A stretch of 64,000 bases of DNA, taken from Acidobacteriaceae bacterium KBS 83. GTDB taxonomy: Bacteria > Acidobacteriota > Terriglobia > Terriglobales > Acidobacteriaceae. The stretch is from NCBI GenBank assembly GCA_000381585.1, contig KB906737.1, positions 124,001 to 188,000 of the forward strand. Reading direction: 5' to 3'. Within the stretch, counting starts at the first letter, position 1. Each line of letters begins with the position of its first letter. Below, piece by piece: positions 5,441-60,214 of this stretch. Position numbers and translations under genes: made by a program. The notes under the pieces are model-generated. The model was not told where the DNA came from. It did no database searches and saw nothing but the letters and a program-made list of their open reading frames with translations.

Positions 5441-6136
5441 ATGAGCACGCGGCAACGCTTCCGTTCCCTGCTGAAGCCGGACGGCACCAACCTCAAGTGG
5501 GTCATCGCGCAGGTGCCTTTCTCTCCCGCAAAGGTGTGGAAGACGCGTCAGGGCATGCGTGTCAAGGGAACCATCAACGGCTTTGCTTTCCGCACCTCGC
5601 TCTTCGGATCGGCGGAAAAAGGGTACGTGGTGCTGGTAAACAAGACCATGCAGAAGGGCGCCCAGGCCTACGCAGGAGAGATGGCCGAGTTCACAGTGGA
5701 GCCCGATCTCGAAGAACGCAAAGCAACCGTGCCGCCCGAGTTGGCCAAGCTGCTGAAGCAAGACCGCGCGGTCGCGCGATGGTTCGCAGCACTCAGCTAC
5801 TCGTATCGCAAGGCCTTCTGTGATCTCGTAAACCAGCCGAAAAGCACGGAAGCAAGGCGGCGGCGCGCTGAGCAGTTGGCCGAACAAATGATGCTGGCAA
5901 TGGAGGGCGAGCACACGCTGCCTCCTATTTTGCAAGTAACCTTCCGGCGCACGCCGGGGGCCCAAGCCGCCTGGGAGGCGATGACACCCGTGCAGCGCCG
6001 CGCGCAGTTGCTTGGCATCTTCTACTACCAGAGCCCGGAAGCGCGGGAACGGCGCGCGCAAAAAGCCGTGGAAGAAGCCCTGCGCCTTCTGAAAGCCAAG
6101 TCCGGGAAGAATGCAGATTCGTTACGGGACCGGTGA
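5441..6136 (+). CDS. YdeI/OmdA-like DUF1905 protein
   Basis: A 231-residue soluble protein with an N-terminal DUF1905-type small barrel (about 20-90, including RVKGTINGFAF and a Gly/Lys-rich strand) and a C-terminal YdeI/OmpD-associated helical region (about 95-150, PPELAKLLKQDRAVARWFAA then YRKAFCDLV). The frame is open 65 codons upstream, but that part overlaps the divergent gene's start; the ATG at 5441 is the sensible start. The last 15 bases overlap the 3' end of the convergent WYL regulator gene. The biochemical role of the family is undefined. Confidence 0.78.
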   Translation: MSTRQRFRSLLKPDGTNLKWVIAQVPFSPAKVWKTRQGMRVKGTINGFAFRTSLFGSAEKGYVVLVNKTMQKGAQAYAGEMAEFTVEPDLEERKATVPPELAKLLKQDRAVARWFAALSYSYRKAFCDLVNQPKSTEARRRRAEQLAEQMMLAMEGEHTLPPILQVTFRRTPGAQAAWEAMTPVQRRAQLLGIFYYQSPEARERRAQKAVEEALRLLKAKSGKNADSLRDR

Positions 6137-57481: not shown

Positions 57482-58282
57482 ATGGCGAACTACACAACAA
57501 TCCTGGTCGAAGAATCACAAACCGAAGCCGGCCGTATCCTCACCATTACGCTCAACCGTCCGGAACGCCGCAACGCGCTCACCTCCACCATGATCCAGGA
57601 GCTAACCCTCGCGCTGCGCGAGGCCGAGGACAGCGGCTGCGGCATCGTCGTCCTGCGCGGCGCGGGTGAGCACTTCTGTTCCGGCCTCGATCTCTCCGAG
57701 CTGCGTGCCATGTCGAGCCGGTCTTTGGAGCAGCACCGGCTCGACTCCATGAACGTCGCCGAGCTCTTTCGCACCCTCTACAGTCTGTCTCTGCCCTCCA
57801 TCGCGGAAGTGCGCGGATTTGCGCTCGCCGGCGGCATGGGCATGGCTACGCTCTGCGATTTCACCATCGCCAGTGAAGACGCGCGTTTAGGCTACTCCGA
57901 GGTGAAGATCGGCTTCGTCCCCGCCATCGTCTCGTCCTTCCTGCTGCTGCAGGTGGGCGAGAAGCAAGCGCGGGACCTCCTCCTCAGCGGCCGAGTCATC
58001 GACGCCGCAGAAGCACACACCCTCGGCCTGATCACCAGGGTCGTTCCAGGCGACCAGCTCGATGCGGCAATCACCGAACTATCCACGACGCTGCTGGCCA
58101 ACAGCCCCGTCGCCATGCGCGCCACCAAGCATCTCCTTCATCGGCAGGAGATCGAACGCCTCAGCCGCAACCTGCGCGCCGCCGTCAATACCAACGCCGA
58201 GCTGCGTGTCACCGATGACTTCCGCGAAGGCATCGCCGCCTTCCTCGAAAAGCGCAAGCCCGTCTGGCCTTCGCGCTGCTGA
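57482..58282 (+). CDS. Enoyl-CoA hydratase, probably methylglutaconyl-CoA hydratase (LiuC-like)
   Basis: A 266-residue crotonase-family protein. Oxyanion-hole segments are GAGEHFCSGLDLSEL and FALAGGMGMATLCDF. The acid in GYSEVKIGFVPA matches the second catalytic glutamate, but the first, usually in GGGxELA, is missing (GGMGMATL), so the exact reaction is unclear. Location after methylcrotonyl-CoA carboxylase beta and HMG-CoA lyase suggests hydration of methylglutaconyl-CoA. The ATG at 57482 has GGACGGGCAGCC before it. Its last 96 or so residues are copied at 59584-59874. Confidence 0.8.
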   Translation: MANYTTILVEESQTEAGRILTITLNRPERRNALTSTMIQELTLALREAEDSGCGIVVLRGAGEHFCSGLDLSELRAMSSRSLEQHRLDSMNVAELFRTLYSLSLPSIAEVRGFALAGGMGMATLCDFTIASEDARLGYSEVKIGFVPAIVSSFLLLQVGEKQARDLLLSGRVIDAAEAHTLGLITRVVPGDQLDAAITELSTTLLANSPVAMRATKHLLHRQEIERLSRNLRAAVNTNAELRVTDDFREGIAAFLEKRKPVWPSRC

Positions 58283-58380
58283 AACGCCGGCTGGTTTCGC
58301 TGTCGCGAGGGCAATCAGAGCGACCAGGCAACAACGCTCTTTGTTTGTGAGGTTGCTGCGCCAGACGGTATAACGGTCGC

Positions 58381-58575
58381 ATGAAGCGCAAGACTTTGTC
58401 AGAAAAAGCTCACGACCTGCGCCAGCAAATGGCGAACGAGCGTCTCCGGAAACGGATTGTGTATCTGCAGGTCATGGCAATAAAGGAGTCGAGCGCAGGC
58501 CGCCTTACACAGATGACTCGAGACGCGGTCCACGCAGCGCTGGATGCATGGCACGAGGAGATCAAAGCGCTGTAA
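58381..58575 (+). CDS. Small basic protein of unknown function
   Basis: A 64-residue frame, MKRKTLSEKAHDLRQQMANE to about residue 20, highly charged and predicted helical. There is no clear ribosome binding site and no family I recognise. It lies 98 bases after the hydratase gene. The low complexity of evidence means it could be non-coding. Confidence 0.4.
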   Translation: MKRKTLSEKAHDLRQQMANERLRKRIVYLQVMAIKESSAGRLTQMTRDAVHAALDAWHEEIKAL

Positions 58576-58854
58576 AGATGTTTCGGTTCGGAAGCAACCT
58601 GAGAGTCGGGTCAGCCTTCGGTTCGCCCGTAGTCTTCAACTGAGACACTTCCGGAATCTGAACAGTCTGGTGTTGCGCACTGTTCGGTGAGTGAGTTGGC
58701 GATTTATCACTCGCTGAGCTGAAAGCTTGAACCCTGTCTGTGAGCGCACCGGCGCCCTATGCACCAATTGAGACTATGAAAGTGACACCAACAGGCTGGC
58801 CCACATCCTCTCTGGTGCTGACACCGAAAGGAATGTGGGCACGGCCGCTATCGG
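58576..58854. other. 279-bp intergenic region downstream of the small basic protein
   Basis: No gene, hairpin terminator or known repeat is evident. A plus-strand frame from 58740 continues into the antisense of the Cys-rich peptide gene and lacks supporting features. Confidence 0.5.
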
Positions 58855-58983
58855 TTATTTGCAGCAACTGCTGCCGTCACAGCAGGCGGGAGTGCCGCAA
58901 CAAGTGGCGACAGTCGCTGCCCGGGCAGACAACGAAAGGACGAGGGCTGCCGCAAATGCGAATACGAGTGCTTTGAGTTTCAT
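58855..58983 (-). CDS. Very small cysteine-rich secreted peptide
   Basis: A 42-residue precursor. A signal peptide (MKLKALVFAFAAALVLSLSARA) leaves about 20 residues with three CC pairs, within TCCGTPACCDGSSCCK. AAGGAGAT stands five bases before the ATG, one of the best ribosome binding sites in the window, so translation is likely. Six cysteines in fifteen residues suggest metal binding or multiple disulfides. The upstream gene on the same strand (59076-59441) encodes another small Cys-containing exported protein. The role may be copper or other metal binding, or a redox or antimicrobial peptide; nothing decides. Confidence 0.7.
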   Translation of the reverse strand: MKLKALVFAFAAALVLSLSARAATVATCCGTPACCDGSSCCK

Positions 58984-59075
58984 AACGATCTCCTTTGAAC
59001 ATGGTGTTTGATACACATGCGCACATGCGCGTTTTCGACGCATTGCCTCTGGGGGATGTAGAGGAAGGAATTGAT

Positions 59076-59441
59076 CTAAATGCGGAGATCGTCTTTGAGA
59101 TTAAATACGGCGGCTCGGTAACGGAGACCGGAAGTTAGCTCACCCTGAGATGCAATGACCAGAGGGCCCGGCCGCAGACTAAAGACTTTTTGAGCACGCG
59201 GAAGAGGACTCGACCGCTCCTGTTCGCGGGTCTCTTTTGTCGCAGTCGTGACAGTGACATGGCAGGCTGGACAGGATTCGCTGGTATTGTTCGCGGGTAA
59301 CGGGCAGCAGGGTGATTGTACTGGCTGGCATAGCGGAAACTGCGCGGAGACGTGCTCTGCAAAAGAGGCCGTCGCGATCCACCCGCAGATTACGAGCAGG
59401 GAAAAGAACACGCGAAGGTGCCGGCCATGCTTCACACTCAA
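59076..59441 (-). CDS. Small exported protein with cysteine motifs
   Basis: A frame of 121 residues with a signal peptide (about 1-33). The mature N-terminus holds C38, C45-C46, C57 and C60-H61 (FPLCQPVQSPCCPLP and SESCPACHV), and the rest is polar with RAQKVFSLRPGPLVI. The start is not fixed: TTG at 59441 or GTG at 59435, neither with a good Shine-Dalgarno. It is followed, 92 bases later, by the Cys-rich 42-residue peptide gene on the same strand. A CxxCH-like element (CPACH) could bind heme or metal, but one motif is weak evidence. Confidence 0.55.
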   Translation of the reverse strand: MSVKHGRHLRVFFSLLVICGWIATASFAEHVSAQFPLCQPVQSPCCPLPANNTSESCPACHVTVTTATKETREQERSSPLPRAQKVFSLRPGPLVIASQGELTSGLRYRAAVFNLKDDLRI

Positions 59442-59583
59442 CTGTAACGCTTTCGCTATTGGAGGACAACCGCCTGCGCCATTTGAAGCTAGCCTCCCAT
59501 CGAACTATCGGGCGATCTCGCGCTTTATTCCTGTCGAAGCCCAGAGTTCCTGCGCCTGTTGAACTGTTGCCAACAGGGCAATG

Positions 59584-59874
59584 CGCGTCATCGACGCCGC
59601 AGAAGCCCACACCCTCGGCCTGATCACTAGGGTCATTCCGGGCGATCAGCTCGATGCCGCGATGAGCGAGCTAGCCACGACGCCGCTGGCCAACAGCCCC
59701 GTCGTCATGCGCGCCACCAAGCATCTCGTTCACCGGCAGGAGATCGAACGCCTTAGCCGCAACCTGCGCGCCCCTGTCAACGCCAAAGCCACGCGCCGCG
59801 CAACTGACGACTTCCGCGAGGACATCGCCGCCTTTCAAGAAATGCGCAAGCCAGTCTGGCCTTCGCACTGCTAA
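59584..59874 (+). pseudogene. Duplicated 3' fragment of the enoyl-CoA hydratase gene
   Basis: The 97-residue frame repeats the last part of the hydratase at 57482-58282, from RVIDAAEAHTLGLITRV to KPVWPS-HC, with 17 or so differences over 96 residues by eye. The DNA match starts at about 59584 and 57993. No ribosome binding site is visible and the oxyanion and active-site parts are missing, so it is a non-functional copy. Parent and copy are direct repeats separated by 1.3 kb that contains the two Cys-rich genes. Confidence 0.85.
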
Positions 59875-59875
59875 A

Positions 59876-60214
59876 TCATCGAAATTTCAGAAACAATCGG
59901 ATGTCATCCAGTGCATCTTGAACACTACTGCCAACTAATGGATCGTTCTTGAGTGGGGCGAGTTTCGACAAGACTAGCTCGACATCCAGCTCCTTGTGAA
60001 TGCGTGCGAGGTGCCCAAGGCAGGTCGCCGCAAAAGCGCGCTCCTCATGATCGGCATGGCTCAGAAAACCGAGGCATCGATTCTGAACCCACCTCCAGTC
60101 AGCGTCGTAATAGGTCGCGCTGAGCAGGGCATCGAGTCGATCCGTCTTCTCTGGACTACGCAACAGCAACTCGATCTCGTGTCGATCTCTCTTCTGAACC
60201 CCGCGGTATTGCAT
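59876..60214 (-). CDS. HEAT-like helical repeat protein
   Basis: A 112-residue helical protein. The region YYDADWRWVQNRCLGFLSHA, EERAFAATCLGHLARIHKEL and VGSSVQDALDDIRLFLKF has the antiparallel helix pairs and conserved WRWVQ and CLGHLARIH of small HEAT-type domain proteins that often occur beside toxins or as immunity factors. No partner toxin gene is adjacent. It ends two bases from the hydratase fragment stop on the opposite strand. Function unknown. Confidence 0.6.
   Translation of the reverse strand: MQYRGVQKRDRHEIELLLRSPEKTDRLDALLSATYYDADWRWVQNRCLGFLSHADHEERAFAATCLGHLARIHKELDVELVLSKLAPLKNDPLVGSSVQDALDDIRLFLKFR

Follow-up and report, generated by a model that had tools for sequence, protein, structure and literature searches.

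Two small, exported-looking open reading frames (ORFs), both bearing cysteines, lie in tandem on the minus strand of the window, by which we mean the whole 64,000-nucleotide stretch of DNA that was analysed. A sequence-only reading had described them as two cysteine-rich secreted proteins in a row; it missed that they appear to differ in kind, since the upstream ORF (P2) is built like a regulatory leader and P1, downstream, like the target of one. We posit, with a probability of about one half, that P2 is a nascent-chain metal sensor resembling CutF and CruR and that it would control P1, a putative exported metallothionein-like peptide. The elements of the locus, in order of transcription, are as follows.

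59464..59469, minus strand: −35-like hexamer TTGTCC, 17 nt before TACAGT
59441..59446, minus strand: −10-like hexamer TACAGT, at −11..−6 of the P2 start
59076..59435, minus strand: P2 ORF, predicted leaderless, 119 aa from its GTG (from alignments, start choice, spacing and region identities); from N to C terminus a signal-peptide-like start, PCCP, CPAC, a variable linker and the conserved C-terminus GELTSGLRYRAAVFNLKDDLRI
59084..59093, minus strand: candidate anti-Shine-Dalgarno GACGATCTCC in the P2 Asp-Asp-Leu codons, complementary to the P1 ribosome-binding region GGAGATCGTT (from the minimum-energy fold and duplex)
58984..59075, minus strand: 92-nt gap between P2 and P1, containing hairpins and, behind the P2 stop, a pyrimidine tract
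58990..58996, minus strand: P1 Shine-Dalgarno AAAGGAG (from the sequence)
58855..58983, minus strand: P1 ORF, 42 aa, exported-looking, with three CC pairs (from the sequence and alignments)
58799..58840, minus strand: terminator-like hairpin GCCCACATTC...GGATGTGGGC 3′ of P1, without a T run (read from the sequence)

The P2-P1 unit and its distribution

The locus is much as it had been described. The two ORFs, whose signal peptides were judged by eye, are separated by exactly 92 nt; P2 carries CC (as PCCP) and CPACH; and P1, whose 42-residue product is MKLKALVFAFAAALVLSLSARAATVATCCGTPACCDGSSCCK, has six cysteines arranged as three CC pairs within its last 15 residues and a start codon preceded by a strong Shine-Dalgarno (SD) sequence, AAAGGAGATCGTT-ATG, with AGGA ahead of all 27 P1 starts examined. 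From the promoter-like site to the terminator-like hairpin the unit spans ~650 bp, and homology between loci ends near the hairpin 3′ of P1. That hairpin was not called by an intrinsic-terminator scan, nor was the P2 promoter-like site by a generic promoter scan at its thresholds, and Rfam gave a chance match only over 58300-59900. The view that neither protein is recognisable as a member of a named family also stands: Pfam, NCBIfam and PHROGs gave no convincing match for either, and P1 matched nothing in Pfam up to E 10, a search that very short cysteine-rich proteins can escape. An assignment of P2 to DUF7340, suggested by one of 15 members at E 0.0016, was unconvincing.

Twenty-eight copies of the pair were read, and their linkage is tight: P2 and a cysteine-rich P1 lie on the same strand 68-100 nt apart in 27 of the 28 loci, and in the 28th (G477) P1 has a GTG start 187 nt from P2. 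The 27 loci include L039 and G585, which are identical over 660 nt, and G478b, which is cut by a contig end and lacks the N-terminal half of P2; G477 and G445 lie outside this set. Copy counts are not independent because the copies are related. Being identical to L039, G585 was left out of the region-identity, flank and codon-position comparisons, the first and last of which used equal-length subsets; the alignment row sets held 5 P2 sequences (A1), 15/23 P2 (A3) and 18/27 P1 (A5). Third codon positions change most in both ORFs (changes at positions 1/2/3 of 2382/1865/3984 in P2 and 750/430/1356 in P1, 12 sequences each), a substitution pattern that bears out the earlier claim that both are translated.

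A lack of homologues with conserved cysteines, which the sequence-only reading had named as fatal to it, is not what profile searches found. Relatives with conserved cysteines exist, and P2 is present in 26 of 398 genomes of the family sample, spread over five of 79 genera; by group, it was found in 13 of 62 genomes of g35 (one of them broken), 9 of 12 of g34 and the single genome (1/1) of g36. The class sample yielded 16 of 399 genomes (11 strong matches, five weak) and the phylum sample 9 of 396, namely six already known and three weak, partial ones; the weak matches outside the family (five in the class sample, three in the phylum sample) are partial or contain stops and were not accepted. 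Plasmid and phage collections held no P2 match, and a single scan of a genome-contig collection confirmed 1 of 68 stretches. Absence from a genome is not proof, since only so many candidates are scored in each genome. In the samples searched the unit is confined to one family, the Acidobacteriaceae as judged from a Silvibacterium metagenome-assembled genome (L039), in which, as in relatives of the window's genome, P2 is followed by P1.

P1 lies directly behind P2 in 25 of the 26 P2-bearing family genomes. In the exception, G445, P1 is missing and a frameshift, possibly a sequencing error, divides P2; interruption of the frame in relatives, another weakness that had been foreseen, is seen in this one genome of the 26. 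A separate P1 profile search matched 24 of 396 genomes, 23 of them at P2 loci, and gave no convincing solo copy: the remaining match, in G693 (E 3.5e-4, stop inside), proved on reading to contain no such peptide. A second P1-like stretch in G036 (contig 8, L037, ~5569-5682, minus strand; E 2.1e-4) has CC pairs, an internal stop, no start for its cysteine-rich part and no P2 in view, and is perhaps a decayed solo copy. In G479 the unit occurs twice on a single contig (L070 and L078); these two copies have diverged, and their P1 peptides have 8 and 12 cysteines.

Conservation of P2 and its predicted start

Conservation in P2 is concentrated in PCCP, the second cysteine pair and the C-terminal ELTxGLRYxxxVFxLKDDLRI-stop, in which VFxLKDDLRI is near-invariant. 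Averaged over all pairs of 14 equal-spaced window-type copies, identity is 0.30 for the linker, 0.64 for the cysteine region, 0.77 for the last 22 residues and 0.84 for the last 11. The linker varies freely in sequence and is nearly fixed in length: the distance between the last cysteine of the pair and the C-terminus is exactly 62 residues in 14 of 17 window-type copies and 58-62 residues in the eight g34 copies measured, and the cysteine motifs as a whole lie ~62-76 residues from the end.

In each locus P2 was taken to start at whichever in-frame ATG or GTG comes first in the interval 330-385 nt ahead of the stop. Such a codon exists in 26 of 27 loci, as GTG in 23 and ATG in three, and in 22 of these 26 loci TAnnnT stands at exactly −12..−7 of it, against a background of 32 in 5071 before any GTG in the same loci. 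The four misses are the window itself, where TACAGT is shifted 1 nt closer to the start, G034, G479a and G479b. TTGnnn, as read from the upstream sequences, occurs at a similar position in 11 of 18 window-type loci, the window included. Because the position of TAnnnT is fixed relative to the start codon, transcription is expected to begin at or next to that codon, and the comparison suggests that the P2 mRNA is leaderless and begins at GTG 59435 rather than at TTG 59441. Of the P2 coordinates proposed earlier, the end of the stop codon at 59076 is kept, whereas the TTG start gives way to the GTG that locus comparison makes likelier. Near the −35 position four g34 copies (L071, L073, L078 and L077) show, by eye, a palindrome GTGAC-N4-GTCAC, a candidate operator.

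The gap RNA, P1 and the genomic surroundings

The gaps tend to fold: against mononucleotide shuffles the mean z is −1.43, with 21 of 27 below zero and the window's gap at −2.31. In the window the P2 codons GACGATCTCC are predicted to pair with the P1 region GGAGATCGTT; at −13.9 kcal/mol, no other of the 27 codon duplexes is as strong. In ten of the 27 copies the P1 SD is predicted to pair with the segment 3-16 nt from the base at which the P2 stop begins, in three with the last P2 codons and in 14 with sequence away from the P2 end. The post-stop duplex has a mean z of −1.38 in the window's group vs +0.51 mid-gap. In g34 shuffled sequences do about as well as this duplex (z −0.19), and swapping partners made no significant difference (p 0.055 and 0.17). 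GAT encodes the second Asp in 17 of 18 window-type P2 copies and five of nine g34 copies, a bias in the window-type copies that would be expected if this codon pairs with the window-type GGAGAT.

With shuffles that keep the P2 codons intact, predicted openness of the ribosome-free SD is 0.30 vs 0.35 in shuffled gaps over the 27 copies (0.33 vs 0.31 in the window), and it falls at or under 5% of 60 shuffles in just 5 of 27. Blocking the P2 stop region, as a ribosome might, raises it from 0.30 to 0.38, vs 0.35 to 0.36 in shuffled gaps. RNAalifold, run on 26 of the 27 gaps (G585 left out), returned the central hairpin as the sole consensus in each of three groups, in which 1, 1 and 2 base pairs show changes in both partners. 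An outer helix in g34, which joins CCTC and GTGTG behind the stop to CACAC and the SD, reaches 75.5% pairing, its covariation being reached by 3 of 500 shuffles and its percentage paired by 23 of 500; its cut and register were set by eye, with the G478b row out of register, and a slide of +2 still gives 61.8% paired. On these models, sequestration of the P1 SD by the 3′ end of P2 is plausible.

P1 itself is dense in cysteines. Among 18 window-type copies, 17 have six and G290 has seven (those of G261 counted over its first 42 residues); nine g34 copies have from 6 to 12, in a variable mature peptide. A signal-peptide-like start is present by eye in all 18 aligned copies, and vicinal cysteines in so short an exported-looking product suggest soft-metal binding. 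In G261 (L058) the usual P1 stop is missing, and the frame continues through the terminator-like hairpin, adding a long tail.

The unit had been placed between a gene and its partial copy, and this is real: the 292 nt that close a gene identified by eye as enoyl-CoA hydratase are repeated without gaps at 86% identity (57992-58283 and 59584-59875, plus strand), the partial copy having its own short ORF of 97 aa. The recent arrival that had been read from this placement is not supported: the unit occurs in five of 79 genera and keeps one neighbourhood in most g34 copies, and the partial gene copy does not date arrival. Pairwise blastn over ~1.5 kb either side, on one strand, placed homology in the window's group mostly between ~−375 and +275 around the P2 stop, mostly with no flank homology beyond the unit even at 76-84% identity; G243 and G443 (92.5%) are the sole pair to share a further downstream block, which resumes at an offset. 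Six of nine g34 copies have an upstream flank in common, with a secretin gene by Pfam in G471, and the neighbours of the g35 copies differ. In one of these, G290, Pfam places a histidine kinase on the left and a short-chain dehydrogenase on the right, flanks that are widely separated in G281 and fall on two different contigs in G460. Since they are unlinked in other genomes, a change of neighbours is not in itself a sign of mobility; the G290 flanks led to no clean empty site in G281 and G460, and from sequence we regard mobility of the unit as possible. By eye, no neighbour gene is constant across genera. An ArsR-family gene (PF01022, E 1.7e-11; L036, 3356-3838) with a CVC motif and extra C-terminal cysteines lies directly upstream of P2 in G034, alone among the copies read.

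Proposed mechanism, alternatives and known systems

We posit that transcription from a promoter begins at the P2 GTG and yields a leaderless mRNA, and that P2 would be exported during its synthesis. The CutF paper reckons that the ribosome conceals ~30 residues and that crossing the membrane takes ~17 (PMC9973294), and on these figures the P2 cysteines would have just emerged when the ribosome reaches the stop codon. The cysteines of PCCP...CPxC would then lie just outside the membrane, where they could encounter a soft metal, for example Cu(I), As(III) or Zn, and the conserved C-terminus, still in the ribosome tunnel, might slow or hold the ribosome depending on metal binding. A ribosome so placed would cover the 3′ sequence of P2 that can pair with the P1 SD, allowing P1 to be translated, a step for which the sequence support is mixed. 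P1 in turn would be exported and bind metal through its CC pairs as a periplasmic metallothionein-like sponge. More tentatively, the unit may represent a new metal-sensing class, in which a leaderless exported leader with a proline-free C-terminus, ELTxGLRYxxxVFxLKDDLRI-stop, holds the terminating ribosome upon contact of metal with cysteines at a fixed distance outside the membrane, its sole purpose being to switch on an exported metallothionein-like peptide.

Tight pairing and conserved cysteines and C-terminus in P2 would also be expected if the two products were structural partners, a stable periplasmic metallochaperone or receptor and a metal-binding peptide, with the gap hairpins just tuning translation; so would the decay of P2 in G445, where P1 is missing. 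We nevertheless consider this unlikely, since the P2 linker diverges freely at near-constant length, P2 has no recognised domain and its conservation peaks at the very C-terminus, right up to the stop. Less probable again is an antagonistic or signalling role, with P1 a disulfide-bonded, bacteriocin-like peptide that P2 would process or confer immunity against. A scattered occurrence (13 of 62 g35 genomes, one broken), differing neighbours in g35 and a variable g34 mature P1 with 6-12 cysteines would fit such a role, but no dedicated exporter, protease or immunity gene recurs, by eye, beside the copies read (transporter-like genes lie near some), P2 precedes P1 and is probably leaderless, and adjacent cysteines are a better match for soft-metal binding than for disulfide knots. 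Single ORFs of such size are common enough to arise by chance, yet functionless ORFs are refuted here by the codon-position bias, recurrence in 28 loci and shared promoter spacing.

A further reading is that P1 is modified: a multinuclear iron oxidase (MNIO, PF05114) is encoded in all 14 P1-bearing genomes tested, and P1 could be its substrate, a bufferin-type modified peptide. Bufferins are known to be encoded beside an MNIO gene, and in the 14 genomes the PF05114 matches lie away from P1, on another contig or >160 kb off on the same one. PF05114 is also found in 10 of 20 genomes without a P2 match (one only partial), among them eight of the nine that come from the P2-bearing genera g34, g35 and g89, so that it follows genus, P2-less genomes of these genera mostly carrying it. 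P1 moreover lacks a CKGK repeat, and in the window's genome (G000) the PF05114 gene lies on another contig beside, by eye, its own CKGK-repeat cysteine-rich precursor. As the enzyme follows genus and has its own neighbouring precursor, its presence is no evidence that P1 is modified, and we hold this reading to be very improbable. The locus in question (contig 10, L127, 24-2747) is bufferin-like, with an exported-looking CKGK-repeat precursor, the PF05114 enzyme, a further gene and a DoxX-like gene, all names except PF05114 being given by eye.

How does the unit compare with known systems? P1 is short and very cysteine-rich, as bacterial metallothioneins and bufferins are; it differs from this group in its signal-peptide-like start, its lack of a Pfam match, its CC pairs in place of CKGK-type repeats and the absence of a linked PF05114 gene in the 14 genomes. 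For a P2 that senses metal as a nascent chain, the closest parallels are CutF of Rhodobacter capsulatus (PMC9973294) and CruR of Bordetella pertussis (PMC9426467), upstream ORFs whose nascent chains sense copper and control the genes behind them. Like CutF, P2 is small and exported-looking, has a cysteine motif and a conserved C-terminus and lies on the same strand upstream of a candidate metal gene (PMC9973294). Set against the features used there to find CutF-like proteins, the window P2, at 119 aa from its GTG, is under the 150-aa length limit, its start is signal-peptide-like by eye, and PCCP with the second cysteine pair is, by sequence, a candidate for the Cys/His metal-binding motif, whereas PP is absent from the last 15 residues in all 27 P2 copies (PMC9973294). 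The cysteine motif lies 62-76 residues from the C-terminus in P2 vs 45 in CutF, P2 is predicted to be leaderless unlike CutF, and the downstream target is a cysteine-rich peptide instead of the multicopper oxidase or transporter-type genes of CutF-like proteins; CutF has a short intergenic stem-loop near the downstream SD, and P2-P1 gaps tend to fold, with weak or mixed signs of SD shielding (PMC9973294). The string 'Acidobacteri' is absent from the main text of that paper. The likeness to CruR, which acts on the genes behind it, is that of an upstream ORF with a cysteine pair and a conserved C-terminal end; the difference is that none of 15 P2 members matches DUF2946 in Pfam and none of 23 aligned copies contains RAPP (PMC9426467).

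P2 thus shares the anatomy of CutF and CruR, falls outside both families by two of their defining tests, and may work alike without being a member of either. The open-access literature yielded nothing on the P2-P1 unit among the matches listed. If our reading is correct, nascent-chain metal sensing would extend to the Acidobacteriaceae, to a C-terminus without the known proline arrest motif, to a probably leaderless mRNA, and to an output in the form of an exported, rapidly varying metallothionein-like peptide; and because the unit is self-contained within ~650 bp, the proposed mechanism is directly testable by reporters.
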